Assembly: GCF_014203735.1 (NCBI RefSeq)
Contig: NZ_JACHJQ010000002.1
Span: 186,001 to 250,000, forward strand
DNA length: 64,000 nucleotides
Origin: Actinophytocola algeriensis
GTDB lineage: Bacteria > Actinomycetota > Actinomycetes > Mycobacteriales > Pseudonocardiaceae
Direction of reading: 5' to 3'
The position numbers and the translations under genes are program-made. How positions within the stretch are numbered: position 1 is the first letter of the stretch; each line of letters starts with the position of its first letter. Shown one piece after another: positions 21,524 to 43,657 of the stretch. The notes below the pieces were generated by a model. It was not told where the DNA came from. It ran no database searches and saw only the letters and a program-made list of their open reading frames with translations.

Positions 21524-23470
21524 ATGACTGGGGTGCGCAAGGTCGTCATCGGTGTCGTCATCGTCGTGGTCGGGGCGCTCGTGGGTGGCGCGATCATCTG
21601 GTGGCAGGGTCAGGACGAGACGGAGGCGAGCCCGCGCCCGATGGTCGTCGGACCGGTCGACCTGCCCGATGACCTGCCGGCCCTCCCACCCCGGCTCGAC
21701 CTGGGCGAGGGCAACCGGCGCGCACCGCTGCCGGGGTTGCCGGACTGGTCGCACGCCGGCTACCGGGAAGGGAAGCCACTTCCGGGCGACGGCGAGATCA
21801 CCGACGACGACGGCTGTGTGCTCACCCCGGAGGAACTGGCCGGGGAGTACGGTGTCCGCCCGGACGACCGGACCGACGACACGGACGGCATCCAGCGGGC
21901 GATCGACCACGTCAAGGCCGAGTGCTCCCCCGGCGCGGACTACGACTCGCTGTCCCTCGTCACGCTGCCGGCCGGCGAGTTGGACGTGTCGCACCAGATC
22001 TCCGTCGACGCCGACCACCTCGTCCTGCGGGGCGCGGGTGACGACCCGGGCACCGGCACCCGGCTGATCCTCCGCGCCGACGAGAACACCCGCTACGACT
22101 CCCTCGGTGACGGCAGCGACTGGGACGAGGACCGCATGTCCCACGAGAGCGGCAAAGGCGGCTGGCTGTGGCCAGGGCGCGGCCTGTTCCGCGTCCAGTC
22201 CCGCGCGGTCCACGAGGACTACCAGGAGGACCACGACTCCGCGCCGGCCAACCGCCGGGACCTGTTCGAGGGCACGGTGAACGTGCACTGGAAGGCCGGC
22301 GTGAAACTCGCGGCACCCGCCCGCACCGGCGACACGACGATCCACCTCGCCAAGCGCCCCAAGGCGTTCGCGGTCGGCGGGTACGTCAACATCCGCGCCG
22401 CCAACACGACGCGGTTCTACGACGAGCAGCACGCGCTGCCCACCGAGCACGACCTGCAGAACATCCACATGCGACAGCAGATCTTCGCGGTCACCGCGGT
22501 GGACGAGGAGAACGAGACCATCACGCTCGACAAGCCGCTCGAGTTCGACGTGCCGGTCGACTCGGTCGCCGACGGCTCCGAGGAGATCGACGGCAAGACC
22601 TATGACTCCAAGGCCGCGCCGCTCGTCGACCCGGTGCTGGGGGTGGGCATCGAGAACCTGTTCCTGACGCAGGTCGTCGACGGCCACGAGCCCGAGGAGG
22701 CCGAGCACGAGTACGGCAACCTCTCCCCCGCCGACGAGATGCACGGCATCGTGTTCAAGTGGGCCGTCGACGGCTGGGTCCGCGGCGTCACGACATACAT
22801 GACCGGCTCGCACCCGGTGGTCACCGAGGAGGCGAAGAACCTCCAGATCGAGGGCAACCGGTTCGTCGGTGCGTGGAACAAGGGCAAGGGCGGCAACGGT
22901 TACCTGCGCGGGTCGCGGGTGTGGGACTCGGTGTACGCCGGCAACGCGCTGCGCGGCCTGCGGCACTTCACGTTCCAGTGGTCCGCGTCGGGCAACGTGT
23001 TCACGGGCAACGACACCGACGCCGACGTGAACCTGCACGGCGGGTGGGAGCGGCGGAACCTGATCGAGAACAACACGGTCACCGTGCCGTTCGAGCACGC
23101 GCCGGGCAACTGCACCGCGAACTGCGGCGGCGAAGGCGGCGACACCGGAGACGAGTCGACGTGGTACCCGCTGTGGTGGGGTGCCGGGCAGAAGGCGGTG
23201 AAGTGGTCCGGCGCGACCGGCCCGCAGAACGTCGTCTTCCGCAACACGATGACGAAGCAGCTCACCGAGGGCGGCGAGCCGACGCCGTACTACGCCGACC
23301 GGAGCAGGATCTACCAGTTCGGGTGGGACGGCGCGCGGTACCTGCACCTCTCGCGGGACGGCGAGCCGATCGCGGACTGGGCGGGCAACGAGGACACCGA
23401 CTTCAGCGGCAACGGCGTCGACACCTCGCGCACCGATGCCGGTCCGTCACTGTTCCTGGAGACGGTCTGA
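21524..23470 (+). CDS. Membrane-anchored extracellular right-handed beta-helix protein
   Basis: A 648-residue protein. The N-terminal helix (residues 6-27, VVIGVVIVVVGALVGGAIIWW) is an uncleaved signal anchor and the rest is outside. Repeated beta-helix rungs appear, such as DGIQRAIDHV, LVLRGAGDDPGTGTRLIL and HGIVFKWAVDGWVRGVTTYM, then LIENNTVTVPFEHAPGNC and PQNVVFRNTMTK, the form of the pectate-lyase superfamily. DGIQRAID is the usual first rung of such carbohydrate-active proteins. The catalytic residues and substrate are not identifiable. The gene may be a polysaccharide lyase or a wall-binding protein. Its last 24 bp overlap the convergent CoA-lyase gene. Confidence 0.72.
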   Translation: MTGVRKVVIGVVIVVVGALVGGAIIWWQGQDETEASPRPMVVGPVDLPDDLPALPPRLDLGEGNRRAPLPGLPDWSHAGYREGKPLPGDGEITDDDGCVLTPEELAGEYGVRPDDRTDDTDGIQRAIDHVKAECSPGADYDSLSLVTLPAGELDVSHQISVDADHLVLRGAGDDPGTGTRLILRADENTRYDSLGDGSDWDEDRMSHESGKGGWLWPGRGLFRVQSRAVHEDYQEDHDSAPANRRDLFEGTVNVHWKAGVKLAAPARTGDTTIHLAKRPKAFAVGGYVNIRAANTTRFYDEQHALPTEHDLQNIHMRQQIFAVTAVDEENETITLDKPLEFDVPVDSVADGSEEIDGKTYDSKAAPLVDPVLGVGIENLFLTQVVDGHEPEEAEHEYGNLSPADEMHGIVFKWAVDGWVRGVTTYMTGSHPVVTEEAKNLQIEGNRFVGAWNKGKGGNGYLRGSRVWDSVYAGNALRGLRHFTFQWSASGNVFTGNDTDADVNLHGGWERRNLIENNTVTVPFEHAPGNCTANCGGEGGDTGDESTWYPLWWGAGQKAVKWSGATGPQNVVFRNTMTKQLTEGGEPTPYYADRSRIYQFGWDGARYLHLSRDGEPIADWAGNEDTDFSGNGVDTSRTDAGPSLFLETV

Positions 23471-24256
23471 CCGGGCGAGGACCTCACGGGCGGACCGGAC
23501 CACGGCCTCGTCCACCATCCGGCCGTCGGCGTCCACGGCGACACCCGTCGAGCCGGACAGCAGCGCCACGGTCGCACGGGCCCGCTCGACCTCCTCGGGC
23601 GACGGCGTGAAGACCGCGTTGATCGTGGCCACCTGTGTCGGCGTGATCGCGGTACGGGCCCGGAAACCCTGACGCAGCAGGAGTTCCGTGGTGCGCTCCA
23701 AGGCGGACAGGTCCCGGACCTCGGTGTGGACCGGGCCAACGGGTGGCAGCAGACCCGCCGCGGCGGACGCGACCACGACCGCCGACCGGATCGGCCACAG
23801 CTCCACCCGGTCCGGACCGGGCCGCAGGTGCAACTCCCCCGTGAGGTCCGCCTCCCCCAGCCCGAGGCGGACCACACGGGGCGACCCCGCGACCGCGTGC
23901 AGGTCCCGCAGGCCCCGCGCGGTCTCGAGTAGTGCCAGCACCGGCACGTCCCGCGACTCTAGCAGCCGGTCCACTTCGGACAGCAGCGCGGGCTCCGCCT
24001 TCGGGACCACCAGCCCGGCCAGGCCGGGACGGTCGGCGACCGCGGCCAGGTCCTCGGCCACGGCGTCGGCGTTGATCCGCACCCACGCCGTGCCGGTGTC
24101 GAGGTACCCGGCCGCCGCCGTCCGTGCCGACCCCTTGTGCGGCACGGCGACGGCGTCCTCCAGGTCGACGATCAACGCGTCGGCGCCGCGACCGGCCGCG
24201 CCGGCGAGCAGGCGCGGCTGGTCGGCGGGGACGTACAGGTAGCTGCGTGGCGTCAT
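23447..24256 (-). CDS. HpcH/CitE-type CoA-ester lyase
   Basis: A 269-residue TIM-barrel lyase of the citrate lyase beta/citramalyl-CoA/malyl-CoA lyase family. It starts RSYLYVPADQPRLL and carries the metal and CoA motif ALIVDLEDAVAVPHKGSAR, then VLALLETARGLRDLHA and RLGLGEADLTGEL. These enzymes split a 3-hydroxyacyl-CoA into an acyl-CoA and pyruvate or glyoxylate. It is the last gene of the 19-gene run and overlaps the amidohydrolase by 4 nt. With the CoA-transferase in the same run it would deliver the final products to central metabolism. Confidence 0.88.
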   Translation of the reverse strand: MTPRSYLYVPADQPRLLAGAAGRGADALIVDLEDAVAVPHKGSARTAAAGYLDTGTAWVRINADAVAEDLAAVADRPGLAGLVVPKAEPALLSEVDRLLESRDVPVLALLETARGLRDLHAVAGSPRVVRLGLGEADLTGELHLRPGPDRVELWPIRSAVVVASAAAGLLPPVGPVHTEVRDLSALERTTELLLRQGFRARTAITPTQVATINAVFTPSPEEVERARATVALLSGSTGVAVDADGRMVDEAVVRSAREVLARSDRLQEQ

Positions 24257-25722
24257 GCGCCGGTCGGCCGCTTGAGGTACCGGCCGACCGGCTCGCCGAC
24301 GACCTTGCCGGACTCCAGCACCCGGTGCCCTCGGAGGAACGTGTCGGTGACCGCGGCGGTCATCGCGAAGCCCTCGAACGGCGTGTACTCCTGTGTGGAC
24401 TCGGAGTCCGCCGCGCGGACGGTCCAGTCGACGCCCGGGTCGACCAGCGCGATGTCCGCGTCGAAGCCGACGCCGAGCGCGCCCTTGGTGCGCAGCCCGA
24501 AGCGGGTCGCCGGGTTCCAGGAGATCAGCCGCGCGATCTCACCGAGCGGCAGGCCGCGCTTGGTGCCCTCGGAGACGAGGCCGGGCAGCAGGTACTCGGT
24601 GCCGCCGAAGCCGGACTTGGCGAGGAACACGTTGTCGCGCGGGTCGCCGAACTTCTGCTCGTCGCGGCAGCACGCGTGGTCGGACACGACCCAGTCGACG
24701 TCGCCCGCGAGGAGGTGGCCCCACAGCGCCTCGACGTCCTCGCGCGGGCGGATCGGCGGGTTGACCTTGGCGCCGAGACCGGACGCGGTGTCGATGTCGG
24801 CGAGCAGGTGCCCGATCGTGACCTCGCGGCGGAACCGGATGTGCGGGAACGCGGTCGCCATCCGCAGCGCCGCGTCCATGGCCTTCGCCGACGACAGGTG
24901 CAGCAGGTTGATGGTGGGCAGGCCCGTCTCGTGCGCCAGGTAGGACGCGATGGACACGGCCAGGCCCTCGGAGTGCTGCGGGCGGGACGCACTGTAGGCG
25001 GCGAGGCCGGTGAGCGTGCCCTCCTCCTCGACGAGCCTGGTGTACGCGGTCATGATCTCCGCGGTCTCGCAGTGCAGCGACAGCGAGATCTCGTCGGCCA
25101 GCTCGGGGAACTGCTCGCGGGCGGCCTGGATGCCGCGCATGACGAACTCGAAGTGCGCGTAGTCGTACCGCTCACCCTCGGGGATCATCAGGAACGAGTT
25201 CTGGTCGGCGGACCGGCCGTGCAGGCCGTGGCTGCCGTAGAACATAAACACCTTGAACGACGTGACACCGTGGTCGCGGACCAGCGCGGGGATCTCGTCG
25301 ATGTGCTCGCGCATCATCGGCGCGAGGTGGTAGGCGTAGTCCACATAGGCCTTGCCCTCGGACAGCGAGAGCACCTCGGGGAACACGTCGGCGTACGTGC
25401 CGCCCTTGTTGAGGTAGTACTGGCCGGTGCGCATGTAGTTCAGCGCGCTCGTCACGCCGCCCTGCGCGCACGCGCGGCTCTCGGTCGCGGCGTCGACCGG
25501 CAGCGGGTTGTAGATGCCCCAGTGCTGGTGGGCGTCCACGACACCGGGGAACGCGAGCTTGCCGCCACCGTCCACGACGGACCTGGCGCCTGCCGGGTCG
25601 ATGCCGGGCGCCACGCGCACGATCTTCCCGTCCACGACACCGATGTCGGCGCGCTCCGGCTCCGGGCGGTCGTGGTGGACCACCCTGACGTTGGTGACGA
25701 GCAGGTCGAGCGGTTCAGTCAT
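24253..25722 (-). CDS. Cyclic amidohydrolase (dihydroorotase/allantoinase/hydantoinase-like)
   Basis: A 489-residue zinc hydrolase that opens cyclic amide or imide rings. Binuclear-site elements are in order: VVDAHQHWG, the carbamylated-Lys strand TSFKVFMFYG, LSLHCETAE, INLLHLSSA and WVVSDHACC, followed by the C-terminal beta domain with KGALGVGFDADIALVDP. It is longer than dihydropyrimidinase-type relatives only slightly. The exact ring is unknown. It overlaps the upstream PrpD gene by 8 nt and the downstream lyase by 4 nt. In the cluster it is the best candidate for ring opening after hydroxylation and reduction. Confidence 0.87.
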   Translation of the reverse strand: MTEPLDLLVTNVRVVHHDRPEPERADIGVVDGKIVRVAPGIDPAGARSVVDGGGKLAFPGVVDAHQHWGIYNPLPVDAATESRACAQGGVTSALNYMRTGQYYLNKGGTYADVFPEVLSLSEGKAYVDYAYHLAPMMREHIDEIPALVRDHGVTSFKVFMFYGSHGLHGRSADQNSFLMIPEGERYDYAHFEFVMRGIQAAREQFPELADEISLSLHCETAEIMTAYTRLVEEEGTLTGLAAYSASRPQHSEGLAVSIASYLAHETGLPTINLLHLSSAKAMDAALRMATAFPHIRFRREVTIGHLLADIDTASGLGAKVNPPIRPREDVEALWGHLLAGDVDWVVSDHACCRDEQKFGDPRDNVFLAKSGFGGTEYLLPGLVSEGTKRGLPLGEIARLISWNPATRFGLRTKGALGVGFDADIALVDPGVDWTVRAADSESTQEYTPFEGFAMTAAVTDTFLRGHRVLESGKVVGEPVGRYLKRPTGA

Positions 25723-27169
25723 GGTCGTCTCCAGGTGACTCGAGGCGGGTGAGGGGGTGCAGGAGGGCGCCGAGGTCGGCGACCGAGTCGAGGGTCAGCG
25801 CCAGCTCCCGGACGGTCGCCGCGGTGGCGGGAGCGAGACGGCGGGCGACGTTGTCGGTGAACTTGGCGGCCAGCTCCGCCTCGGACAGCGGCCGCTGGGG
25901 TCCACCGCGGTTGGCGAGGACCTCGGCCGTCCATTCGCGACCGTCGGCCGTGCGCACGGTGACGATCGCGGGGAACTGGTTGGGGAAGATGGCGTCGCAG
26001 CGCGCGTCGCCCACCACGCTGACCTTCGCCATCAGGGCGCGGCGCCGCGGGTCGGCGGCGAGCGCGTCGGTGAAGTCGGCGAGCCCGGCACCCAGCCCCG
26101 ACCCGCCGAGCAGTCCGGTGACCACGGCGTAGGGGCCGCTGAACTGGGCCTGGTACCCGGTCTCCGGCGCGCGTTTGGTCTCGATCGGCTGGCCGATCGT
26201 GCGGATCACGGCGGTCGGCACGCGCAGCTGGATCTCGGTGAGGTCGTCGACGGGCACCCCCTCCGCACGCAGCTGTGTGCCCGCGTCGATGGCGGTGTGG
26301 GTGAAGTGATTGGCCGGGTAGGGCTTGAAGAAGATGCCGGGCACCGACCAGTCCGCACCGAGCCCGCCCACGACCTGGTCGAGGTCGGTCTGGTCGCGCA
26401 GGAACGCCTGGAAGAAGCCGAACCGGCCCTCGAGGACGGTCGGCGGGCCGGTGAACCCGCGCCGCACCAGCCCGGCCGCGGTGACCGCGGACTGGGCGGC
26501 CCACCCGCAGTGCAGCCGCTTGACGGTGCCACCGGTGCGGTTGGCCTCGATGACCCCGGACGCGAACGACGCGGTGACGCCGAGCGCGTGAAGAACACCG
26601 GACTCACCGAGTCCGGACAGCAGTGCCGCGGCGGCGGCCGCACCCATCGCACCGCAGATGGACGTGGCGTGCTGGCCGTGTTCGAAGTAGACGGAGTTGC
26701 CGAGGTCCCGGTCGTAGCCCGCCATGCCGAGCCGGACCGCGATCTCGAGCCCGACGGCGATCGCCGCGACCGTGTCCCGCCCGGTCGCACCCGCCGCTTC
26801 CGCCGCGGCGAGCGCCGCGGGGATGACGCAGGCGCTCGGGTGCAGCACCGACGGCAGGTGCGTGTCGTCGTAGTCGAGGGAATGCGCCAGCACGCCGTTG
26901 ACGAACGCGGCGCTCGCGGCCGGGACCGGCTCGGCGAGCCCCACGGCGCTCGCCTGCTGCCGGCCGCCCTGCTCCGCGACGTGCGCGACGATCGCCTGGC
27001 TGGTCGGCAGTCCCTGCGCGGCGACGCAGAGCCCGAGCACGTCCAGCACGCGGTGCCGCACGCTCGTGACGACGTCGGCCGGTGGCCCGTCCGCGTAGGT
27101 CCGCGCGGCGAACGACGCGAGCCGTTCGGCGAGGGTGGCGGTGTCCACGGTGATCTCCGCGGCGGTCAC
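25715..27169 (-). CDS. MmgE/PrpD family protein 1
   Basis: A 484-residue member of the 2-methylcitrate dehydratase/cis-aconitate decarboxylase/iminodisuccinate epimerase family, which acts on branched di- and tricarboxylates. Seen: the helical domain with NGVLAHSLDYDDTHLPSVLHP, ASFASGVIEANRTGGTVKRL, HCGWAAQSAVTAAGLVRRGF and the lid domain with FFKPYPANHFTHTAIDA. Start: GTG at 27169 overlapping the cyclase stop (GTGA). The reaction may be dehydration, isomerisation or decarboxylation. It is only distantly similar in details to the second PrpD gene at 37289, so the two probably catalyse different steps. Confidence 0.87.
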   Translation of the reverse strand: MTAAEITVDTATLAERLASFAARTYADGPPADVVTSVRHRVLDVLGLCVAAQGLPTSQAIVAHVAEQGGRQQASAVGLAEPVPAASAAFVNGVLAHSLDYDDTHLPSVLHPSACVIPAALAAAEAAGATGRDTVAAIAVGLEIAVRLGMAGYDRDLGNSVYFEHGQHATSICGAMGAAAAAALLSGLGESGVLHALGVTASFASGVIEANRTGGTVKRLHCGWAAQSAVTAAGLVRRGFTGPPTVLEGRFGFFQAFLRDQTDLDQVVGGLGADWSVPGIFFKPYPANHFTHTAIDAGTQLRAEGVPVDDLTEIQLRVPTAVIRTIGQPIETKRAPETGYQAQFSGPYAVVTGLLGGSGLGAGLADFTDALAADPRRRALMAKVSVVGDARCDAIFPNQFPAIVTVRTADGREWTAEVLANRGGPQRPLSEAELAAKFTDNVARRLAPATAATVRELALTLDSVADLGALLHPLTRLESPGDDHD

Positions 27170-27990
27170 GCGCCCACCACCGCGAGGGGCCGGACCGGTG
27201 AGCCGGTGGCGCCGAACAGTGGCAGCGGGGACAACACGAACAGGAACTCGTGCACGCCCTCGGCCGCCACGCCCTCCAGGTTGAGGGCCTCGATGATGTA
27301 GACGCCGCGTTCGACGAGCAGCACCCGGTGCGCGGGCAGGCTCGCGTGCCCCGCCCCGGGGGCAAGACGCTCGAACGCGATGGTGTCCGCGCCGACGGCG
27401 TGTGCCCGCTTGTCGGCGAGCCAGGTCGCCCCCGCCTCGCCCACCCCCGGCACCCCGGTCGACTTCCCCTGGTACACCGAAGGGTCCGGGTCGTCGAACA
27501 ACCGGCCCCAGCCGCTGCGCACGAGCACGACGTCACCCGCGCGGACCTCGGCGCCCTGCTGCTTCTCGGCGGCCTCCAGGTCGGCAGGCGTGATCTCGTA
27601 ACCCGCCTCGCACCCGACCGGGATGCCGAGCGCGGCAGGCACGTCGAGCAGCACGCCCCGGCGGACCATGGGCTTGATCGTGTGCGCGCCCAGCTCGACG
27701 AACCTGCCGCCGCGCCCGGCCTCGAACGCGTCGGAGCCGTCGACGAGCCTGCCGTTGTGCGAGACGTGGGCGAACGCGTCGATGTGGGTGCCGACGTGCG
27801 TGCCCATGGTGATCATGTCGTTGGCCGCGGACCCGCCGTCGGCGCGGACCATGTCGCCGTGGCGGCGCGGCAGCGCGTGCCAGAACGCCGGGTGGTTGGG
27901 CGACTGCGGCATCCCGACCCGCAGCTCGCGACCGAGGTCGTGCACCGTGAGGCCGTTCTCGACGGCGGTGAGCAGAGCCTGGGTGGTCAT
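27166..27990 (-). CDS. Cyclase/KynB-like metal-dependent hydrolase
   Basis: A 274-residue protein of the Cyclase family, which includes kynurenine formamidase and isatin hydrolase. The metal site is HVGTHIDAFAHV (HxGTHxDxxxH), with supporting GDVVLVRSGWG and LNLEGVAAEGVHEFLFVLSPLPLFGATGSPVRP at the end. These enzymes hydrolyse formamides or cyclic amides. The ATG at 27990 overlaps the CoA-transferase stop by one base (TGATG). In the cluster it could remove a formyl group or open a second ring. Confidence 0.88.
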   Translation of the reverse strand: MTTQALLTAVENGLTVHDLGRELRVGMPQSPNHPAFWHALPRRHGDMVRADGGSAANDMITMGTHVGTHIDAFAHVSHNGRLVDGSDAFEAGRGGRFVELGAHTIKPMVRRGVLLDVPAALGIPVGCEAGYEITPADLEAAEKQQGAEVRAGDVVLVRSGWGRLFDDPDPSVYQGKSTGVPGVGEAGATWLADKRAHAVGADTIAFERLAPGAGHASLPAHRVLLVERGVYIIEALNLEGVAAEGVHEFLFVLSPLPLFGATGSPVRPLAVVGA

Positions 27991-29183
27991 CACGCCACCA
28001 CCTTCTCCGCGCGCAGCCGCGCCAGCTCGTCCGCGTCCACTCCCAGCTCCCCCAGTACGTCGTCGGTGTCGTGGCCCAGCGGCCGGCCGGTGAACCGGAT
28101 CCGGCCGGGCGCGCGCTCGGCCCGCCACATCACGTTGTGCATCAGCAGCGGTCCGAAGTCCTCGTCCTGCGCGGTGGTCAGCATCCCGGTCGACCGCACG
28201 TGCTCGTTCTCGACGAGGTCACGCGCGCTGTAGATCGGCGCGATCGCGGCCCCGGCCTCCTCGAACGCGGCGGTCACCTCCGCCTCGGTGCGCTCGGCGA
28301 TCCAGCCGCCCACGTACTCGTCGAGCAGGTCGGCGTGCCCGGCGCGGCCGAGGCCGGTGGCGAACCACGGTTCGGCGATCACCTCGGGGTGGCCGACCAG
28401 CTCCAGTACGCGCTCGGCGATCCGCTGCGCGCTCGTCGACACGGCCACCCAGCGGTTGTCCTTGGTGCGGTAGGTGTTGCGGGGGGCGTTGTTGGTGGAC
28501 CGGTTGCCGTGCCGCTCCCCCACGACGCCCAGCTGGTCGTAGACCGTCGGGCCGGGCCCGACCGCGTCCATGATCGGTTCGAGCAGGTTCATGTCGATCA
28601 CCTCGCCGCGGCCGCCGTTGCGCTCACGGGCGTACAGCGCCATGGTCGCCGCCGACGACGCGGCGATGCCGCAGATGCTGTCGGCGAGCCCGAACGCGGG
28701 CAGCGTCGGCGGACCGCCTGCCTCGCCGGTGAGGTGCGCGAAGCCGCTCATGGCCTCGGCGAGCGTGCCGAACCCGGCGCGGGACGCGTACGGGCCGGTC
28801 TGGCCGAAGCCGGTGATCCGCACGATCACCAGCGCCGGGTTGACCGCGTGCAGCTGCTCCGGGCCGACGCCCCAGCGCTCGAGGGTGCCGGGGCGGAAGT
28901 TCTCGACGAGCACGTCGGCGGTCTTCGCGAGGCGCAGCAGCAGGTCCGCACCCCCGGGAGTGGACAGCTTCAGGCCGACGGTGCGCTTGTTGCGGGAGAT
29001 CTCCTTCCACCACAACGGGATCCCGTCCTTGGCCTCGCCGTGGCCGCGCATGCCGTCACCGGCCTCGGGGTGCTCGATCTTGACCACGTCCGCCCCGTGG
29101 TCGCCGAGGATCCGGCAGCACAGCGGGCCGGCGAGGATCGTCGAGACGTCCAGCACCCGGACGCCCGTGAGCGGTCCGTCCAT
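27990..29183 (-). CDS. Class III CoA-transferase (CaiB/BaiF)
   Basis: A 397-residue enzyme that moves CoA from a donor such as succinyl-CoA to a carboxylic acid. Seen: GVRVLDVSTILAGPLCCRILGDHGADVVKIEHPEAGD at the start (in pieces), VLVENFRPGTLERWG, and the catalytic Asp region FGLADSICGIAA. The two-domain linked-ring fold has the normal length. Followed two genes later in function by the CitE-type lyase, it resembles the activation step used for itaconate, citramalate or mesaconate. It starts 2 nt after the MFS stop. Confidence 0.9.
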   Translation of the reverse strand: MDGPLTGVRVLDVSTILAGPLCCRILGDHGADVVKIEHPEAGDGMRGHGEAKDGIPLWWKEISRNKRTVGLKLSTPGGADLLLRLAKTADVLVENFRPGTLERWGVGPEQLHAVNPALVIVRITGFGQTGPYASRAGFGTLAEAMSGFAHLTGEAGGPPTLPAFGLADSICGIAASSAATMALYARERNGGRGEVIDMNLLEPIMDAVGPGPTVYDQLGVVGERHGNRSTNNAPRNTYRTKDNRWVAVSTSAQRIAERVLELVGHPEVIAEPWFATGLGRAGHADLLDEYVGGWIAERTEAEVTAAFEEAGAAIAPIYSARDLVENEHVRSTGMLTTAQDEDFGPLLMHNVMWRAERAPGRIRFTGRPLGHDTDDVLGELGVDADELARLRAEKVVA

Positions 29184-29185
29184 GG

Positions 29186-30445: not shown

Positions 30446-30795
30446 CCCCAGATCTCGTCGGCATAGGTGATGTTCACGTCCGTCCGCCAACCGGTCTCCG
30501 GGTCCTGGCCCCACTTCTCGCGCCAGCCCGCCGCGTGCTCGAGCACCGCGGGGTCGCCGTGGTGGAGCTTGCCGCCCGCGTGGAAGGCGTCCAGGTCGTC
30601 GACGAACATGAGGTCGAAGTGGCGGAACCACTCCTCGCCGCGCGCGTTCTGCCGCACCACGTAGTTGGCGTAGTTCTGGATGCCGGGGTTGCGGCGGAAG
30701 ATCGGGTAGTCGACGGACCGCGTGTACTCGGCGTACTCCTCCAGCGGGACGCCGGGCTTGATGTTGTAGGTCAGCAGGACGAGCTTGCGGGCCAT
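30442..30795 (-). CDS. EthD-domain protein
   Basis: A 117-residue dimeric alpha+beta barrel protein of the EthD family (RKLVLLTYNIKPGVPLEEYAEY, SVDYPIFRRNPGIQNYANYV, DLMFVDDLDAFHAG). EthD-type proteins accompany P450 ether degradation and various ring-cleaving or decarboxylating steps, sometimes as small lyases or cyclases. The exact role here is unknown. Its RBS lies in the 17-bp gap after the flavoprotein gene. The stop overlaps the MFS start. Confidence 0.82.
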   Translation of the reverse strand: MARKLVLLTYNIKPGVPLEEYAEYTRSVDYPIFRRNPGIQNYANYVVRQNARGEEWFRHFDLMFVDDLDAFHAGGKLHHGDPAVLEHAAGWREKWGQDPETGWRTDVNITYADEIWG

Positions 30796-30812
30796 GGTTT
30801 CGATCCTCTCCT

Positions 30813-33139: not shown

Positions 33140-33585
33140 GACCGCGCCGCCTTCCGGACGGCCGCGACGATCGTGTTGTACCCGGTGCAGCGGCACAGGT
33201 TTCCGTCGATCGCGCGGAGGATGTCGTCGTCGGTGGGGTCCGGGGTGGACTCGACCAGTTCCTTCGCCGTGAGGAGCATGCCGGGCAGGCAGAACCCGCA
33301 CTGGAAGCCGAACTCGTCCCAGAACGCCTGTTGCACGGGGTGCAGGTCGTCGCCGTCGGCCAGCGACTCGATGGTCTCGACGGCCGACCCCTCGGCGGAC
33401 AGCGCGAGCACCGAGCACGACTTGGTGGTCTGCCCGTCGACCACGACCGTGCACGCGCCGCAGTCGCCCGTGAGGCAGCCGACGTGGGTGCCGGTGAGAC
33501 CGACCTGCTCGCGGATGGCGTGCACCAGCAACGTCCGGGGGTCGACGTCGATCTCGTGCTCCACGCCGTTGACGGTCAGCTTCAT
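33136..33585 (-). CDS. Molybdenum hydroxylase, [2Fe-2S] subunit
   Basis: A 149-residue iron-sulfur subunit of the xanthine dehydrogenase/CoxS family. The plant-type [2Fe-2S] loop is CLTGDCGACTVVVDG, and the second cluster is QCGFCLPGML with GNLCRCTGY. It passes electrons from the Mo site to the FAD subunit. The gene overlaps the FAD-subunit gene upstream and the NTF2-like gene downstream by 4 nt each. Together with 33582-36703 it forms a complete three-subunit hydroxylase, an enzyme type that puts OH groups on N-heterocycles or aldehydes using water. Confidence 0.95.
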   Translation of the reverse strand: MKLTVNGVEHEIDVDPRTLLVHAIREQVGLTGTHVGCLTGDCGACTVVVDGQTTKSCSVLALSAEGSAVETIESLADGDDLHPVQQAFWDEFGFQCGFCLPGMLLTAKELVESTPDPTDDDILRAIDGNLCRCTGYNTIVAAVRKAARS

Positions 33586-36703: not shown

Positions 36704-37278
36704 CAGGGCATCGCCACCCGCAGGCGCTTCCCGGTGCGGTACACGGGGTTGCGCTTGTCCACGTCGAGCTTGTGCACCTCACCGTTGCCGTCCACAGCGG
36801 ACTGGAGGCCGCCGGTGACGCCGGGTGTGCTGGTGATGAAGAACTTCTGGCCGTCCTTGGTGGGGAACGGCGGTTCGTGCCAGGTGCCGCGGTGGATGTT
36901 GAGGATCACGTCGCCGGGCACGAGGAACGCGCGAATCGCTGAGAACGCGGGGAAGTCGTCCACGAGTGGTGCGTCCGGCGGTGCCACGACGGAGACGAAC
37001 GGGTCGCCGTTCAGCGGGATGAACGTCTGCGTCATGCCGTGGTGGCGTTCCATGTACCGGATGTCGCCGCCGCGGTAGCCGACCCGGAACAGGATGAACT
37101 CGGGCCGCTCGTCGGCCTGCAGCACGACCGGGCCGTGGATGGCGTTCCGGCCGTTGTACAGGTCGATCGGCAGCTTCGGGGTGTCGTCGAGCGACACGAC
37201 CTCGCCGAACGGGGCGAACGCCTCGGCCGTGACCGGCTCGGGAGTGATGGTGTGCACGTCGATCTCGGTGTCGGTCAT
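36703..37278 (-). CDS. Ureidoglycolate lyase (AllA)-like protein
   Basis: A 191-residue cupin-like protein of the AllA family (AEAFAPFGEVVSLD, MERHHGMTQTFIPLNG, LVPGDVILNIHRGTWHEPPFP). The authentic enzyme splits ureidoglycolate to glyoxylate and urea. Here the setting is not an allantoin operon: no allantoicase, urease or ureidoglycine gene is present. It may act on another N-acyl aminal or ureido intermediate released by the amidohydrolase. It begins 10 nt after the second PrpD gene. Confidence 0.83.
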   Translation of the reverse strand: MTDTEIDVHTITPEPVTAEAFAPFGEVVSLDDTPKLPIDLYNGRNAIHGPVVLQADERPEFILFRVGYRGGDIRYMERHHGMTQTFIPLNGDPFVSVVAPPDAPLVDDFPAFSAIRAFLVPGDVILNIHRGTWHEPPFPTKDGQKFFITSTPGVTGGLQSAVDGNGEVHKLDVDKRNPVYRTGKRLRVAMP

Positions 37279-37288
37279 CGGGTTCTCC

Positions 37289-38656
37289 TCACGGGCGGGT
37301 GGCCAGCGGCACGGTCACGGCACGCACGGGCGTGGCCTCGGGTGGGGCGAGCAGCAGGTCCGCGGTCTGCTTCGCGATGCGCTCGCCGAACGCGGAGCCG
37401 ACGTAGCCGTCGAACTTGGCGAGCAGCTGGTCGCGGGTGAGCGGGGCACGGCTGTCACCGGCGGGGACGTCCACGGTCCGCGTGTGCTCCGTGCCGTCGG
37501 CGGTGGTGATGGTGACGCGGGTGGCGGTGTACTCGGGGTACTTCGCCTCCAGGTCGGCGGCCGGCCGCAGCCGCACCAGATCGGCGACGCGGAGCACGGC
37601 CGGGTCGGTCCGGCGGTCCTGCGAGTACTGGGCACCGCCCACGTCCCGGTCGGCCACGGCCGCGCCCACCACGTACGGCAGGCTCAACGTGCAGGCCACT
37701 GTGGACGGATCGGTCCCGACCGGGCGGTCGACGAGCAGGAGCGCGATGTCGTAGATCTCCACGTCCACGTCGGTGATCGCGGCCGGGTCGAGGTCGTGCT
37801 CGACCGCCAGCTCCACGGCTGCCTGCGCGGCGCCGTGCGTGTGCCTGCAGCCGGCGAACCGCTTCTGGTGCACGTCGAGGATCGTCCACTCGGCGCCGAG
37901 GTCGTCGGTCGTGTCGGTGACCGGTTCGCCGCCGAGCACGGCGACCAGGCCGCGGGGGTGCTCGACCACCTCGCGCCACCCGGTCAGCCCGGCCGCGGCG
38001 TGCTGCGCGCCCTCGACCCCGGCCCGCGCGAGCTGACCGGCGAACGCGGGCTTCGCCGACGGTCCGGCGAAGATCGACTCGATGAGGACGGCCGGTGCGA
38101 AGAACGCGGCCGCGCCGATCGCGTCGGCGATCCCGTCCTCCCCGAGCCCCAGCAGCTTCGCGCATCCCGCGGCGGCGCCGAACGTCGCCGCGAACGGGAA
38201 CCAGCCCGCCTGGGTCGCCCTCGGGTGGGCGGCGCGGCCGATCCGGTCGGACACCTCGTAGGCGACGACCGCGGCGGTCAGCAGGTCACGCAGGTCGGCG
38301 CCGGTCTCCTCGGCGACCGCGAGCAGCGCGGGCAGCGTGTGGGACGGGTGGAAGCCGCCGAAGCGGTAGCCGTCCTGGTGCTCGAACACGTCGGCGGCCG
38401 CACCGTTGCAGTAGGCCGCGTCCGGCGCGGGCGCGGAGAACCCCGCGCCGATCACGGTGGCGGCGGGCCTCCCACCACGGGCCCGCACGAGATCGGTGAT
38501 CACCGCGACCTCCGGGGTGCGGGCCCCGCCGACCGCGGCGCCGACGAAGTCGGTGAGCAACGCGCCCGCCTTCGCGACCACGGCGTCCGGCAGGTCCGCG
38601 TAGGACAGCCGGGCCGCGAACGCGGCCATCGCCCTCGTGCCGGGAACGGCTGTCAC
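37289..38656 (-). CDS. MmgE/PrpD family protein 2
   Basis: A 455-residue second member of the MmgE/PrpD fold (AAFAARLSYADLPDAVV, AAADVFEHQDGYRFGGFHPSHTLPALLAVAEE, AFFAPAVLIESIFAGPSAKPAFAGQLARAG, HQKRFAGCRHTHGAAQAAVELA). It has the HPSHTLPA segment typical of the family instead of the DYDDTHLPS segment found in paralogue 1. Enzymes of this family dehydrate, isomerise or decarboxylate polycarboxylates and also epimerise iminodisuccinate. The start overlaps the ABC ATPase stop by 4 nt. Confidence 0.85.
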   Translation of the reverse strand: MTAVPGTRAMAAFAARLSYADLPDAVVAKAGALLTDFVGAAVGGARTPEVAVITDLVRARGGRPAATVIGAGFSAPAPDAAYCNGAAADVFEHQDGYRFGGFHPSHTLPALLAVAEETGADLRDLLTAAVVAYEVSDRIGRAAHPRATQAGWFPFAATFGAAAGCAKLLGLGEDGIADAIGAAAFFAPAVLIESIFAGPSAKPAFAGQLARAGVEGAQHAAAGLTGWREVVEHPRGLVAVLGGEPVTDTTDDLGAEWTILDVHQKRFAGCRHTHGAAQAAVELAVEHDLDPAAITDVDVEIYDIALLLVDRPVGTDPSTVACTLSLPYVVGAAVADRDVGGAQYSQDRRTDPAVLRVADLVRLRPAADLEAKYPEYTATRVTITTADGTEHTRTVDVPAGDSRAPLTRDQLLAKFDGYVGSAFGERIAKQTADLLLAPPEATPVRAVTVPLATRP

Positions 38657-39459
38657 GCGTGCCCGCCGAGCTGCTTGCGCAGTTGACCGGTCATCTCGCC
38701 GAACCGCGCATCGGCTGCCACCGACAGGTCACGCGGCCGTGCGAAGTCGACCTCGACGATGTCCTGCACGCGGCCCGGCCGCTGGGACAGCAGCACGACC
38801 CGGTCGGCGAGGAACACGGCCTCGGAGATCGAGTGGGTGACCAGCACGATCGTCTTGCCGGTCTCCTGCCACAGCCGCTGCAGCAGCAGGTTCATCGAGT
38901 CGCGGGTCATCGCGTCGAGCGCGCCGAACGGCTCGTCCATCAGCAGGATCGACGGGCGGTGGATGAGCGCACGGGCGATCGCGACGCGCTGCTGCATGCC
39001 GCCGGAGAGCTGCTTCGGGTAGTGGTCGAGGAAGTCCTCCAGGCCCACGAGCCCGGCCAGCTCCTCCGCGCGCCGCTTCCGCTCGGCACGGCCGATCCCC
39101 TTGGCCTCCAGCGGAAGCGCGATGTTGCGCCACACCTTCCGCCACGGCATCAGGTTCGGTGCCTGGAACACGAACCCGAGCGAGCCGAGCGCGTCCCGGG
39201 CCGGCTTCGCGTCGCGGCCGGTGAACAGCGGCTTGCCGCCGATCTCGATAGTGCCCTCGGTGGGCGAGATGAGCCCGGCGAGCATCCGCAGGAGCGTCGT
39301 CTTGCCGCACCCGGACGGGCCGAGCAACACGACGAACTCGCCCGGCCGCACCTCCAGGTCGGTGGGCAGCAGCGCCTGCACGGGGCCGGCGCTCGCGGCG
39401 TAGGTCTTGCCGACGCCACGCACGGAGATCGCGTCGCCCGCGATCACGTTCTCGCTCAT
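38653..39459 (-). CDS. ABC transporter ATP-binding protein (SsuB/TauB/NMT1 type)
   Basis: A 268-residue ATPase. Walker A is GPSGCGKTTLL, the signature is QLSGGMQQRVAIARAL, Walker B is ILLMDEPFGALD, and the switch His is LVTHSISEA. It energises the permease at 42809 and the binding protein at 41720. The ATG at 39459 (MSENVIAGD) was chosen over an upstream in-frame start. It is separated from its permease by two enzyme genes, so transport and catabolism genes are interleaved in the same transcript. Confidence 0.92.
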   Translation of the reverse strand: MSENVIAGDAISVRGVGKTYAASAGPVQALLPTDLEVRPGEFVVLLGPSGCGKTTLLRMLAGLISPTEGTIEIGGKPLFTGRDAKPARDALGSLGFVFQAPNLMPWRKVWRNIALPLEAKGIGRAERKRRAEELAGLVGLEDFLDHYPKQLSGGMQQRVAIARALIHRPSILLMDEPFGALDAMTRDSMNLLLQRLWQETGKTIVLVTHSISEAVFLADRVVLLSQRPGRVQDIVEVDFARPRDLSVAADARFGEMTGQLRKQLGGHA

Positions 39460-39512
39460 CGCACTCTCCCGGATGGTGCTGTCAGTCACGATGTTCGCTC
39501 CGCAAGCTTCGC

Positions 39513-40283
39513 TCAGTCGACATACGCCTGCCTCGCCAGCTCGTCCCACGCGCCGCCCGGCGCGGGGTCCCGGTACTCGGTGGTGGTGGCCGCGTCGGAC
39601 CGGATGAACGACATCGTCCCGCCGCGGGAGTAGAGCGGCCCGTGGAAGATGCCCGGCGAGCGGAAGAAGTACGAGCCCTCCCGCATCACGCCGCGGGCAC
39701 CCATGAGGACGTCGCCGTAGATCTTGTAGGACTCCTCGTAGACCGGGTGCGACTCCTCGGACTCCGACCGCCAGCCCGGCATCATCGCGGCCAGGTAGAT
39801 GTAGGCGCGGTCGTCCTTCCGCAGTGTCTTGAGCATGGCGCCGGGCCGCAGCTCGACCTCACCACTCCACGTCGCCGGTGTCCACTGGAGACGTTCGGTG
39901 TGGGTGACGGAGATGGCGCCCGGGTCCCCCTCACCGGGTCCGAACACCGGGGTCGTCCAGAACCCGCAGTACAGGACCAGCCCGCGCACACCCGGCACCA
40001 GGTCCAGCTCGGCGCCCGCCGCGATGTGCACGTAGTCGTTGACCTCGATCGTCTCGCCGTTCAGCACCCCGCCCCCGGCGAGCACGTACGCGTCCAGCTC
40101 GGCGGCGAGCACCCCGCGCTGCGGGTCGACGACCCGCTGCACGGCCGTCTCGGCGCCGTCGCCGAGGTCCCGGCTCAGCACCCGCTTGCGGCCGCCGCCG
40201 AGGAACCCGAACTCACCCTCGGCCGGCCGTTCCCACGGCACGTCCGCGCTGTCGATGAAGTCCACATCGGACCGGTTCCACAT
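39513..40283 (-). CDS. Double-domain cupin protein
   Basis: A 256-residue cytosolic protein of two cupin-like beta barrels (DAYVLAGGGVLNGETIEVNDYVHIAAGAELDLVP and GVMREGSYFFRSPGIFHGPLYSRGG). It resembles the DUF4437 group, but the family name is uncertain. It could be a small dioxygenase, an isomerase or a substrate-binding protein. It starts one base inside the FAD-dehydrogenase stop (TGATG). A 53-bp gap follows before the ATPase gene. Confidence 0.78.
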   Translation of the reverse strand: MWNRSDVDFIDSADVPWERPAEGEFGFLGGGRKRVLSRDLGDGAETAVQRVVDPQRGVLAAELDAYVLAGGGVLNGETIEVNDYVHIAAGAELDLVPGVRGLVLYCGFWTTPVFGPGEGDPGAISVTHTERLQWTPATWSGEVELRPGAMLKTLRKDDRAYIYLAAMMPGWRSESEESHPVYEESYKIYGDVLMGARGVMREGSYFFRSPGIFHGPLYSRGGTMSFIRSDAATTTEYRDPAPGGAWDELARQAYVD

Positions 40284-41719
40284 CACGCACTCCCAGCTGC
40301 ACGGCGGCCGATGAGCCGCCCGAACGACAACGCGGGCGTCACGCTCATCCCGCTCACGAACGACTTGCCCGACAGCGTGCTGCCGCCGAGCACCTCCCCC
40401 GCCGCGTACAGGTTCTCCACGGGACCCGACCCGCCGACGACGCGCAGGTCCTTGTCGACGACCAGCCCCGCCGGGCTCTTCAACGTCGACCCGTGGTTGC
40501 GGACCGCGTAGTACGGGGCGCGCTCGATGGGCAGCGGCAGGTGCTCGCGTCCCAGCTGGTCCACACCGGACGCGACCGCGGCGTTGTACTCCTCGACCGA
40601 GCGGGTGAGCCCCGCCGGGTCCACCCCGGCCAGCTCGCCCAGTTCCTCGATCGTGTCGGCGGTGGCGAACGACGGGTGCGTCGCGAACGCCTCCGACAGG
40701 TCCTCCTCGGCCCAGCTCGGGAACAGCGCGGGTGCCTTCTGCCGCACCGCGTCGTCGTAGACCACCCAGAACCGCAGGCCGGGCTGGTCGAGCAAGGCCC
40801 TCTCCCGGACGTCGACACTGTCGGTGTCCTCGGCGACGAACCGCTCCCCCCGCTCGTTGACGTGGATCTCCCACGGCAGCCGCGACTGCGGCGTGAGCTG
40901 CGGGTAGTCGTCGAGCGGGACTGTCCTCGACGGACTGTCGGGCAGCAGGACACCGCCGTAGGTGGGCAGGAACAGGTCGCCGCCGCGGGTGGTGGCGCCG
41001 AGGTCGAGCGCGGCGAGCAGGCCGGTGCCGGTCGACGTCGGCGCGCCCGGTCCCACCAGTGGCGCACCGCCGGTGAGCTGCGGGAACAGTTCAGCGTTGC
41101 CCGAGTAGCCGCCGCTGGTCAGCAGCACGTGGTCCGCGTCGAGGTCGGCACGCACCCCGTCCGGCCCGAACACGGTCACGCCCGCCACCCGGTTCGGACC
41201 GTCGGCGCGCAGCGCGGTAACCGTCGTGTTGAGCAGCAACGTCACCGAGCCCTCGGCACACACCCGCTCGAACCGCGGGATCAGGACCTCCAGCACGGAG
41301 TTCCCGCCGCGCGTGCCCCAGTAGGTGCGGGGCAGCGTGTACGGCTCGTGGAAGTAGAGGATCGCGGGCGCCGCCGGGTCCATGTCGAACCCGGCGGACA
41401 TCAGCCAGTCCACGGTCTCCGGCGCGTGGTCGACCGCGAGCCGCACCAGCTCCGGGTCCGCGGTGTTCTTGCTGATCCGCATCACGTCGTCGAAGTGCAG
41501 GTCGGGGCTGTCGTGGATGCCGCGTTCGCGCTGCAGCGCGGTGCCACCCGCGGACAGCTGCGCCCACGAGCGCCACAGCGTGCCGCCGACCTGGTCGGCC
41601 TGCTCGACGACGGTCACCCGCAACCCGTGCCGGGCGGCCTCGATCGCCGCGGGCAGTCCCGCGGTGCCCGCGCCGACGATCAGCAGGTCGGCCTTCGCGG
41701 CGTCGATGTCGTCACCCAC
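40283..41719 (-). CDS. FAD-dependent oxidoreductase (fumarate reductase/tricarballylate dehydrogenase/KstD family)
   Basis: A 478-residue FAD_binding_2-type flavoprotein. The N-terminal dinucleotide fold is DLLIVGAGTAGLPAAIEAARHG, followed by GGTLWRSWAQLSAGG. The C-terminal FAD loop is ENLYAAGEVLGGSTLSGKSF. Members reduce or oxidise C=C bonds next to carboxyl or keto groups. The start is GTG at 41719, immediately after the upstream TGA. A likely role is alpha,beta-dehydrogenation of an opened-ring dicarboxylate. Confidence 0.87.
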   Translation of the reverse strand: MGDDIDAAKADLLIVGAGTAGLPAAIEAARHGLRVTVVEQADQVGGTLWRSWAQLSAGGTALQRERGIHDSPDLHFDDVMRISKNTADPELVRLAVDHAPETVDWLMSAGFDMDPAAPAILYFHEPYTLPRTYWGTRGGNSVLEVLIPRFERVCAEGSVTLLLNTTVTALRADGPNRVAGVTVFGPDGVRADLDADHVLLTSGGYSGNAELFPQLTGGAPLVGPGAPTSTGTGLLAALDLGATTRGGDLFLPTYGGVLLPDSPSRTVPLDDYPQLTPQSRLPWEIHVNERGERFVAEDTDSVDVRERALLDQPGLRFWVVYDDAVRQKAPALFPSWAEEDLSEAFATHPSFATADTIEELGELAGVDPAGLTRSVEEYNAAVASGVDQLGREHLPLPIERAPYYAVRNHGSTLKSPAGLVVDKDLRVVGGSGPVENLYAAGEVLGGSTLSGKSFVSGMSVTPALSFGRLIGRRAAGSA

Positions 41720-42769
41720 TCAGATCTGCTCCACGAACTGGGTGGTGACGAAGTCCTCGATCGGACGCGACGTGTCCTTCATGATCCCGGACTTGCGCAT
41801 CAGCTCGACCGCCGACTCCCACGCAGGCATGTCGATGGTGAGGTACTCGCCTGCCGCCGACCTGCAGATCACCGGCTGAGCGTCGACCTTGAGCTTCGCC
41901 AGCTCCTCGTCCTGCACCTCGACCTTGTTGAACGCGCCGACGGCGGAGAGCACCTTCTCCAGGTTCTCCGGCTTCTCCACGAACTGGTAGCCCTTGCGGG
42001 ACGCGCGGAGGAAGCCGGTGATCGCCTCGGCCTCCTTCTCCACGTCCGCGGTCTTCACGAAGTAGGAGTCGCCCGGCATCTTCGCGAACTCGTCGGTGTT
42101 GAGGTAGTTCAGCTCGATCTCGCGCTGCTTGAACGCCGACTCGGAGCCGATGTAGGTGATGAAGCCGTCGACCTCGCCGCGGTTGAGGAACTCCAACGAG
42201 CCGACGTCGGCGCCCGTGACGACCTTCTTGACCTTGTTCGGGTCCAGCCCGACCGCGACGGACATCGCGTCGAGCAGCAGTTCGGTCGACCCGCCCTTGG
42301 AGATGACGCCGATCGTCTTGCCCTGCCACTGTTCCGGGTGCGTCAGCGGGTTGTCCGGTGTGGACGCGACGCTGTACTGGCTCTTCTGGTCGCCCTGCGC
42401 GACCGTGATGATCGTGGCGCCGGTGTCGGCGATGAGCGGGCAGGTGTTGATCGCCGCGGCCTTGCCGACCAGGCCCTGGTTCGCCGAGACCTGCGACACG
42501 GAGCTGGCCGTGCCGCTGCCGCCGACGACGTCGACGTTCAGGCCCTCCTCGGCGAAGTAGCCCTCCTGGATCGCGACGTAGATGTCGGCGTAGTTGATGA
42601 TGTGCTGGAACGGGGTGATGAACGTGGCGTCCTTCGCGTTCGGGCCTGCCGCGGCCTGGTTCGCCGAGTCGTTGCCCGTGGACGGCGCGCACGCCATCAC
42701 GAAGGTGCTGCCCGCGGCGGTGGTGATCGCGAAAAGGCCGCTGTTGCGCAGGAAAGAACGTCGATCCAT
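41720..42769 (-). CDS. ABC transporter substrate-binding lipoprotein (NMT1/THI5, SsuA-like)
   Basis: A 349-residue periplasmic-type binding lipoprotein. The N-terminus MDRRSFLRN carries a twin-arginine motif and FVMAC a lipobox (Cys27), so it is probably Tat-exported and lipid-anchored. The NMT1/SsuA fold follows (FITPFQHIINYADIYVAIQEGYFAEEGLNVDVV read in pieces). This family binds sulfonates, nitrate, thiamine pyrimidine precursors, riboflavin and aromatic or heterocyclic acids. It presumably captures the cluster's growth substrate. The gap of 39 nt from the permease gene is short. Confidence 0.92.
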   Translation of the reverse strand: MDRRSFLRNSGLFAITTAAGSTFVMACAPSTGNDSANQAAAGPNAKDATFITPFQHIINYADIYVAIQEGYFAEEGLNVDVVGGSGTASSVSQVSANQGLVGKAAAINTCPLIADTGATIITVAQGDQKSQYSVASTPDNPLTHPEQWQGKTIGVISKGGSTELLLDAMSVAVGLDPNKVKKVVTGADVGSLEFLNRGEVDGFITYIGSESAFKQREIELNYLNTDEFAKMPGDSYFVKTADVEKEAEAITGFLRASRKGYQFVEKPENLEKVLSAVGAFNKVEVQDEELAKLKVDAQPVICRSAAGEYLTIDMPAWESAVELMRKSGIMKDTSRPIEDFVTTQFVEQI

Positions 42770-42808
42770 GATGCCGGACACTCCTGGGTCTGCTGGGTCC
42801 ACAAGGGA

Positions 42809-43657
42809 CTAGAGGCTGGTGGCACGCCCCGACGACTCGTGCCAGGGGATCGCGAACCGGCGGATGCCCGCCACCACGGCGTAGAGCAGGAAGCCGAGGA
42901 CGGTCATGATGATCACGACGGCGAACAGCTGGTCGGTGCGCAGCGCCGCGAGCATCACCGTGGCGAGCGCGCCGAGGCCCTCGTCGCCACCCAGGTACTC
43001 ACCGACGATCGCGCCGGTGATCGCGAAGACGATGCCCAGCTCGATGCCGGTGAGCACGGCGGGCAGCGAGGACGGGATGTCGAGCGAGATCACGCGCTTC
43101 CACCACGGCGCCTGGATGACGCGCATGAGGTCGCGGTGGCCCGCCTCGATGGAGCGGATGCCGAGAATCGTGTTCTGCATCATCACGAAGAAGCTGATGA
43201 TCGCGGCCATGAAGATCTTGGACGAGAGGCCGAAACCGAACCACAGCAACAGCAGCGGCACGATCGCGACCTTCGGCACCACCTGCGTCGCCACGAGGAA
43301 CGGCGACAGCACCCGTTCCAATGACCGCATCTTGCCGAGCGCGATGCCCAGCGCGACCCCGACGACGACGGCGATGCCGAAACCGACGATCGTCTCGTAG
43401 AACGTGATGTACGTGGCCTCGTAGATCATCTCGTCGCCGAGCAGCTCGATCAGCGCCGTCCACACCTGCTCGGGTGGCGGCATGATCAGCTCGCTGACGC
43501 CGGAGACGACCGTGTACAGCTTCCAGAGCCCGATGATCGCCGCGAAGATCAGTGGCGTCGTCACCCACAACAACCATCGGGGACCGCTCTCCTTGCGCGG
43601 CGCGCGCGGGGCGGACGGGGACTCGGGTCGAGCTGGGGCCTGCGTCGCACTGACCAT
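42809..43657 (-). CDS. ABC transporter permease (SsuC/TauC type)
   Basis: A 282-residue inner-membrane permease with about six helices and the EAA-loop segment IRSIEAGHRDLMRVIQAP. It also carries GVALGIALGKMRSLERVLSPF. The ATG at 43657 has GGAGG 8 nt upstream; longer in-frame starts lie in the promoter. It is the first gene of the 19-gene run. It forms one importer with the binding protein at 41720 and the ATPase at 38653. Confidence 0.92.
   Translation of the reverse strand: MVSATQAPARPESPSAPRAPRKESGPRWLLWVTTPLIFAAIIGLWKLYTVVSGVSELIMPPPEQVWTALIELLGDEMIYEATYITFYETIVGFGIAVVVGVALGIALGKMRSLERVLSPFLVATQVVPKVAIVPLLLLWFGFGLSSKIFMAAIISFFVMMQNTILGIRSIEAGHRDLMRVIQAPWWKRVISLDIPSSLPAVLTGIELGIVFAITGAIVGEYLGGDEGLGALATVMLAALRTDQLFAVVIIMTVLGFLLYAVVAGIRRFAIPWHESSGRATSL

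Follow-up and report, generated by a model that had tools for sequence, protein, structure and literature searches.

A conserved 19-gene run linked to an IclR-family regulator in Actinophytocola algeriensis, a candidate two-unit regulon of N-heterocycle catabolism

The window analysed here is a stretch of 64,000 nucleotides (nt) of Actinophytocola algeriensis (contig NZ_JACHJQ010000002.1, positions 186,001 to 250,000 of the forward strand). It carries a run of 19 minus-strand genes at 23447-43657, with an IclR-family regulator gene just upstream on the same strand. With about even confidence, this system is proposed to be a catabolic regulon under IclR control that comprises two transcription units, in which an entry unit read from promoter P1 would make a cyclic amide or imide, and a core unit read from an internal promoter, P2, would cleave it via a coenzyme A (CoA) ester. 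An earlier note, made from the sequence alone, had described a single run of 19 packed genes linked to the regulator. Its frames, its tight junctions (-8 to +53 nt) and the IclR link were all confirmed, but the run probably consists of two units, as it is divided by a further promoter with its site, and the core beyond these recurs with other front ends. The internal promoter (29289-29260) and the two-module build go beyond that account. The gene families, the conserved order, the recurring core, and the conserved promoters and palindromes are computed results.

The same note had read the run as a coherent catabolic cluster and named gene-neighbourhood conservation as the check, and this reading is supported, as tblastn recovered the gene order in nine other species from four actinomycete families. 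The full set of 19 was found in A. gossypii, A. xinjiangensis, Umezawaea tangerina, and U. endophytica. Eighteen were found in Microbispora sp. H11081 (old yellow enzyme, OYE, not found by tblastn), eighteen each in Nakamurella leprariae and two Nocardiopsis species (major facilitator superfamily, MFS, carrier not found by tblastn), and 17 in Nonomuraea cavernae (OYE and CitE not found by tblastn). Identity of the loci with conserved order is about 49-92%, one cut-off fragment being left out. A second FAD_binding_2-like protein precedes the CoA-transferase in both loci that gave no OYE match. The permease gene is preceded by the IclR gene in A. xinjiangensis and in each of six loci compared; in the stretches of the two remaining species, the regulator gene is out of view. 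Chance packing of unrelated neighbouring operons, for which just the unusual mix of families speaks, is strongly contradicted by an order kept at such identity across four families, and its probability is practically negligible.

The amidohydrolase of the run was identified in 23 of 150 genomes searched at E <= 1e-80, the window's own included. On the amidohydrolase tree, the version with molybdenum (Mo) hydroxylase genes needs three label changes against a shuffled mean of 9.6, so it is clustered but does not form one clade. Inside the branch of Mo-hydroxylase clusters sits Nonomuraea glycinis (L071), which has the core with a P2-type promoter and site and no Mo-hydroxylase genes in view; it may have lost the entry module.

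The gaps between the IclR and permease genes of eight species, the window among them, have in common hexamers resembling TTGACC-17/18-TAGCAT and, downstream of these, a palindromic site around GTTCCGC-TNA-GCGGAAC, to which the IclR regulator putatively binds. In the window, the CoA-transferase gene is immediately preceded by a related promoter and site (29289-29229), and a strict pattern placed such a pair there in 14 of 52 loci. Nine Mo-hydroxylase loci are known besides the window's; eight of them have this pattern, and the ninth, of Nakamurella, has like sites at P2 that lack the first hexamer. With a matrix computed from the eight P1 sites, scores of 12 or more were obtained before the CoA-transferase gene in 14 of the 52 loci, compared with 18 of the 678 other upstream regions. 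Among the 15 best of these other regions, 11 precede importer, FAD, MFS or SnoaL genes of the same clusters (classes c25, c14, c33, and SnoaL). A second transcription start is probably located exactly at the border between the variable and the fixed part of the run. In four close relatives (L067-L070), the called MFS and CoA-transferase frames are fused without a stop into 806-816 codons; in the window, by contrast, a stop codon directly precedes the CoA-transferase gene, and P2 is inside that stretch. A search of the window's own genome with the 17-base pattern gave one exact match (P1) and two with one mismatch. When up to two mismatches were allowed, 28 forward and 25 reverse matches were obtained, against five and seven for a reversed control (53 versus 12), and this excess perhaps represents sites of other IclR-type regulators.

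The core was surveyed around the best 80 of 480 amidohydrolase relatives in GTDB contigs, with partners sought within about 10 kb, less at contig ends, and in a second set taken from the 22 other whole genomes, its stretches being at most about 39 kb long; at least three species are common to both sets. CoA-transferase, cyclase, MmgE/PrpD, and CitE were counted as partners by preset identity thresholds. All four are near the amidohydrolase in 41 of the 80 loci, at least three in 46, and all four in 21 of the 22 whole-genome relatives, the remaining one lying on a 6-kb contig. The core is mostly accompanied by front ends other than that of the window. Four types were recognized: the Mo-hydroxylase set (the window's version); an NMT1 importer with short-chain dehydrogenase, M20 peptidase, alpha/beta hydrolase, and OsmC; a branched-chain-type importer with FAD_binding_2, another MmgE/PrpD, and an Asp/Glu/hydantoin-racemase protein; and an EutA/arylmalonate-decarboxylase-like protein with DUF2848 and OYE. 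On plasmid pDND3A of Rhodococcus gordoniae, about 6 kb separate the core from a cluster composed like that for itaconate/methylsuccinate degradation. The cyclase, CoA-transferase, and MmgE/PrpD genes of Variovorax paradoxus VAI-C are within about 9 kb, by annotation alone. Plasmid relatives of the cyclase, the AllA-like protein, and CoxL, together with six annotated neighbourhoods, yielded one useful precedent, pAO1; in the four neighbourhoods other than these two, the core was not seen.

P2 thus looks like the border between a variable entry module and a fixed core. More broadly and more tentatively, with confidence well short of even, the core may be a common lower cassette that takes cyclic amides or imides to dicarboxyl-CoA esters and then cleaves them. 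As a pathway it would be widespread among actinomycetes and undescribed, with at least four front ends each feeding in other heterocycles under a shared IclR code; the Mo-hydroxylase version is that of the window. The wide variation of front ends is also compatible with a core that opens a lactone or another non-nitrogen ester, the two modules serving different compounds and having the same IclR control by coincidence. In Streptantibioticus cattleyicolor the CoA-transferase, CitE, cyclase, and MmgE/PrpD genes are side by side with an MFS-carrier-like gene (by eye) nearby, and no amidohydrolase match was detected in the 30.8 kb examined around them, which is in line with this explanation. The same entry module adjoins the core in nine other species, however, and the amidohydrolase superfamily acts on cyclic amides, so a lactone-opening core is considered unlikely.

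Family scans covered all 19 proteins with NCBIfam (for three of them the best 25 of 97, 189, and 52 matches), 12 of the 19 with Pfam, and nine with PDB sequences. The CoA-transferase is of the CoA_transf_3 family, its best model being succinate-glutarate CoA-transferase with 207 of 750 bits. The PF04199 cyclase is 34.8% identical to the cyclase of the pAO1 nicotine cluster over 93% of the window protein. In the alignment to iminodisuccinate epimerase, with residues mapped to the published numbering by spacing (our own mapping), the core MmgE/PrpD protein 2 retains the H..D..H pattern together with another His and two Lys; its nearest structure is IRG1 of Bacillus subtilis. The amidohydrolase has allantoinase as its best NCBIfam match (219.5 bits), below the AllB family level of 357.85. 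Its residues H65, H67, K157, H217, H275, and D348, which we take to be the metal ligands, are invariant across 24 amidohydrolases. The CitE-like protein is nearest to RipC-type lyases, with 153 bits on the RipC/Ccl model against a cut-off of 375; this model does not discriminate, because it matched 52 of 60 relatives and the cut-off was passed in none.

The outline given in the earlier note, of import, hydroxylation, reduction, ring opening, and cleavage, fits these families and the precedents in the available parts of PMC9304392, PMC6214936, and PMC12290011; all the reactions, their order, and the substrate we infer. An N-heterocycle would be taken up by the P1 unit, which consists of the importer, the Mo-hydroxylase, the ene-reductase and FAD enzymes, the AllA-like and small proteins, and the MFS carrier. 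The Mo-hydroxylase would oxygenate a ring carbon beside the nitrogen, and the flavin enzymes would reduce a ring double bond to leave a cyclic amide or imide; Mo-hydroxylase action, OYE reduction, and imide hydrolysis of a pyridine have precedent in the available text of PMC9304392. The amidohydrolase and the PF04199 cyclase, two predicted metal-dependent C-N hydrolases, would convert the amide or imide to a substituted 1,4-dicarboxylate. The PF04199 protein of the nicotine plasmid pAO1 was hypothesised to open the C-N bond of trihydroxypyridine (PMC6214936, in the part available), and the accessible part of PMC9304392 likewise has such a cyclase proposed for this step. The MmgE/PrpD enzyme would then epimerise the dicarboxylate and so correct its stereochemistry, the family III CoA-transferase would load it onto CoA, and the CitE-like lyase would cleave a hydroxyacyl-CoA, most likely to acetyl-CoA and a 2-oxo acid such as pyruvate.

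This order from dicarboxylate through epimerisation and CoA ester to C-C cleavage is suggested by the MmgE/PrpD precedent, by the residues kept in the core MmgE/PrpD protein, and by the nearness of CitE to RipC. As far as the available part of PMC12290011 goes, an MmgE/PrpD protein beside itaconate genes is a methylsuccinate isomerase working on free acids, the characterised members have a C4 1,4-dicarboxylate substrate backbone in common, and IRG1 of B. subtilis probably has a function that is not yet established. Isonicotinate via citrazinate, imidazole propionate, maleimides, thymine-type pyrimidines, and cyclic dipeptides were considered as substrates and not adopted, evidence for them being wanting; a literature search gave no paper on the isonicotinate route.

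Most family labels of the earlier note hold, and three were corrected. The large flavoprotein, called trimethylamine-dehydrogenase-like there, is somewhat nearer to ene-reductases by PDB match bits (best match NCR with 211 bits, 2,4-dienoyl-CoA reductase 209, trimethylamine dehydrogenase 185). For the small protein labelled EthD, Pfam gave no match at 1e-3. The cupin belongs to DUF4437/Cupin_7. The AllA-like protein passes Pfam PF04115 (81.8 versus 23 bits) but not ureidoglycolate lyase at the NCBIfam family level, its best model giving 68.6 versus 230 bits. It keeps the ERH..Q.FIPL and HRG.WH stretches of a ureidoglycolate hydrolase structure. Of nine genomes searched for it, the six that have the Mo-hydroxylase module gave a match and the remaining three did not.

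These likenesses, together with the allantoinase match of the amidohydrolase and the hydantoin-racemase-family protein and M20 peptidase of other front ends, are what a ureide-forming ring (imidazole, hydantoin or pyrimidine) would predict: the Mo-hydroxylase would give a hydantoin or dihydropyrimidine, whose ring the amidohydrolase would open to yield a carbamoyl acid, with urea then released by the AllA-like protein, as in allantoin breakdown. Such a route would end in glyoxylate or aspartate, which require neither CoA-transferase nor CitE; the AllA and allantoinase scores are below cut-off among the matches listed, and AllA is outside the core. A ureide route is regarded as unlikely. The AllA-like protein points to a ureide and the CoA-dependent end to a branched dicarboxylate, and the two may act on different parts of one molecule.

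A reductive nicotinate pathway of the Eubacterium barkeri type (6-hydroxynicotinate, tetrahydro-oxonicotinate, enamidase) was also weighed, as the Mo-hydroxylase, flavin reductase, and amidohydrolase parallel its first three steps as described in the available part of PMC9304392. The best PDB matches of the Mo-hydroxylase large subunit are, however, CO dehydrogenase (CoxL 8uem, 406 bits) and quinoline oxidoreductase. Nicotinate dehydrogenase is lower, with 153.8 bits for 3hrd_A and 107.9 for 3hrd_B, each over partial length and not strictly comparable with 8uem because the 3hrd chains are split subunits. With regard to purine oxidation, the cut-off of the xanthine dehydrogenase molybdenum-subunit model was not reached (377.7 versus 780 bits). 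The amidohydrolase matches hydantoinases and allantoinases in PDB, enamidase not being named among the best 60 of 93 matches, and the C6 reductive nicotinate route requires downstream enzymes other than those present here. Such a pathway is very improbable.

Several observations weigh against the two-unit catabolic regulon. Among the NCBIfam matches listed, no cut-off is reached by any of the 19 proteins, so no activity was assigned to them, and no hydratase or acyl-CoA dehydrogenase model is present; the hydroxyl needed by CitE would therefore come from the substrate, an MmgE/PrpD protein or another locus. MmgE/PrpD protein 1 is without two expected His in the same spacing-based mapping to iminodisuccinate epimerase. 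The P2 site of the window scores 17.7, while the best of one shuffled window is 15.4 and P1 scores 36.5; at P2, two of the closest relatives score just 6.1 and 6.7. Where an IclR gene immediately precedes the CoA-transferase, the site is mostly absent from that place, and the 52-locus set includes near-copies. The case for P2 thus rests on its conserved place and build and not on its score. Finally, the amidohydrolase is without core partners in 22 of the 80 loci (10 Streptomyces, 11 Nonomuraea, and one Mycobacterium fragment), and in the 10 Streptomyces it comes after NMT1-type importer genes. A nearby class c29 protein, glycosyltransferase-like by eye, accompanies the amidohydrolase and importer genes in loci without core partners from both genera, namely L095, L096, L103, L105, and L117 of Streptomyces and L108, L122, L126, L128, L130, and L140 of Nonomuraea.

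The features are summarized in Table 1. All 19 frames were re-called from the sequence, guided by third-position GC, which is high. Overlaps are 1, 4 or 8 nt and gaps 0 to 53 nt. The MFS junction is not firm, because the codon taken as the MFS start is GTC; the open frame extends back to 30631, within the EthD-like gene. Three terminator-like sites were detected within the run, versus 3.4 in shuffled sequence, and one at the IclR stop (43947-43934). The 3' end of the CitE gene shares 24 nt with a plus-strand gene for 648 aa (21524-23470), for which Pfam gave no match at 1e-5. Beyond the IclR gene and a short-chain dehydrogenase gene, an AurF-type N-oxygenase gene adjoins a ferredoxin/flavoprotein reductase gene (45517-48670).

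Table 1. Genes, promoters, and putative operators of the run, with positions in the window.
Feature	Position	Strand	Basis or remark
IclR-family regulator	43931..44746	-	IclR_C and HTH_IclR; BhcR model 176 bits vs 350 cut-off
P1 promoter TTGACC-18-TAGCAT	43729..43758	-	like match in seven other regions; independent scan agrees
Putative IclR operator downstream of P1	43694..43718	-	kept in 8/8 intergenic regions examined
ABC permease (SsuC/TauC type)	42809..43657	-	first gene of run; NCBIfam
NMT1-type substrate-binding protein	41720..42769	-	Pfam
FAD_binding_2 oxidoreductase (flavocytochrome c/TcuA-like)	40283..41719	-	NCBIfam, Pfam
DUF4437/cupin protein	39513..40283	-	Pfam
ABC ATPase	38653..39459	-	NCBIfam
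MmgE/PrpD protein 1	37289..38656	-	NCBIfam; nearest solved structure iminodisuccinate epimerase
Ureidoglycolate-lyase-like protein (AllA family)	36703..37278	-	PF04115
Molybdenum hydroxylase large subunit	34355..36703	-	NCBIfam, PDB matches
Molybdenum hydroxylase FAD subunit	33582..34358	-	NCBIfam
Molybdenum hydroxylase [2Fe-2S] subunit	33136..33585	-	NCBIfam
SnoaL/NTF2-like protein	32744..33139	-	Pfam
OYE/2,4-dienoyl-CoA-reductase-type flavoprotein	30813..32747	-	PDB matches; CxxCxxC-x11-C stretch
Small protein, 'EthD-like' in the earlier note	30442..30795	-	without Pfam match
MFS carrier	29186..30424	-	NCBIfam; start not firm; 3' end overlaps P2
P2 internal promoter TTGACC-18-TAACCT	29260..29289	-	inside 3' end of MFS frame; like match in 14/52 loci
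Second putative IclR operator	29229..29253	-	just upstream of CoA-transferase gene; rests on conservation
Family III CoA-transferase (core)	27990..29183	-	NCBIfam, Pfam, PDB matches
PF04199 cyclase/hydrolase (core)	27166..27990	-	Pfam, PDB matches
MmgE/PrpD protein 2 (core)	25715..27169	-	Pfam, PDB matches
Cyclic amidohydrolase, hydantoinase/allantoinase superfamily (core)	24253..25722	-	NCBIfam, PDB matches
CitE-like lyase, RipC/Ccl type (core)	23447..24256	-	NCBIfam, PDB matches

If the proposal is true, one lower pathway would explain the use of several N-ring compounds by many soil actinomycetes, and functions would be offered for unassigned branches of the MmgE/PrpD, PF04199, and AllA families. 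The conserved amidohydrolase, relatives of which are encoded by 480 stretches, and the putative operator would be handles for finding the compounds. The most compact versions of the core are short enough to be expressed and tested whole.

The earlier note had found no known pathway that matches the run, and this stands, as literature searches, with subscription journals mostly uncovered, gave no described operon like the whole set. The itaconate/methylsuccinate cluster (Ict-Ich-Mcd-MmgE-Ccl) likewise has a CoA-transferase, an MmgE/PrpD protein, and a CitE/Ccl-type lyase together. The lyase of the itaconate-type cluster of R. gordoniae gave 176 bits on the RipC/Ccl model, versus 153 for the CitE-like protein of the window, and its MaoC protein matched RipB/Ich below cut-off (148.5 of 340). 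Unlike that system, the run has neither a MaoC-type itaconyl-CoA hydratase (Ich/RipB) nor an acyl-CoA dehydrogenase among the NCBIfam matches listed for its 19 proteins, and it has in addition a pair of C-N hydrolases and a front end of oxidative/reductive enzymes. The pAO1 nicotine cluster and the R. rhodochrous 2-hydroxypyridine (hpo) route are also N-heterocycle pathways with a Mo-hydroxylase and a PF04199 cyclase. The families found in the run include no 2,6-dihydroxypyridine hydroxylase or omega-amidase; the run has an ene-reductase, uses a second hydrolase, the amidohydrolase, and closes with CoA-dependent steps. With the nicotinate (hxn) pathway of Aspergillus nidulans, as far as the available source text describes it, the run has in common a Mo-hydroxylase, OYE-type ring reduction, and cyclic imide hydrolysis, but the imidase HxnM of that pathway is PgdA/PuuE-like and not of the window's family, and that pathway ends in hydroxyglutarate. 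Allantoin and purine breakdown also has allantoinase-superfamily and AllA-family proteins; the window scores below the family cut-offs and adds the CoA-dependent end. Taken as heterocycle catabolism, the run would be a variant whose lower cassette is unusual and reusable and whose regulatory code can be tested.

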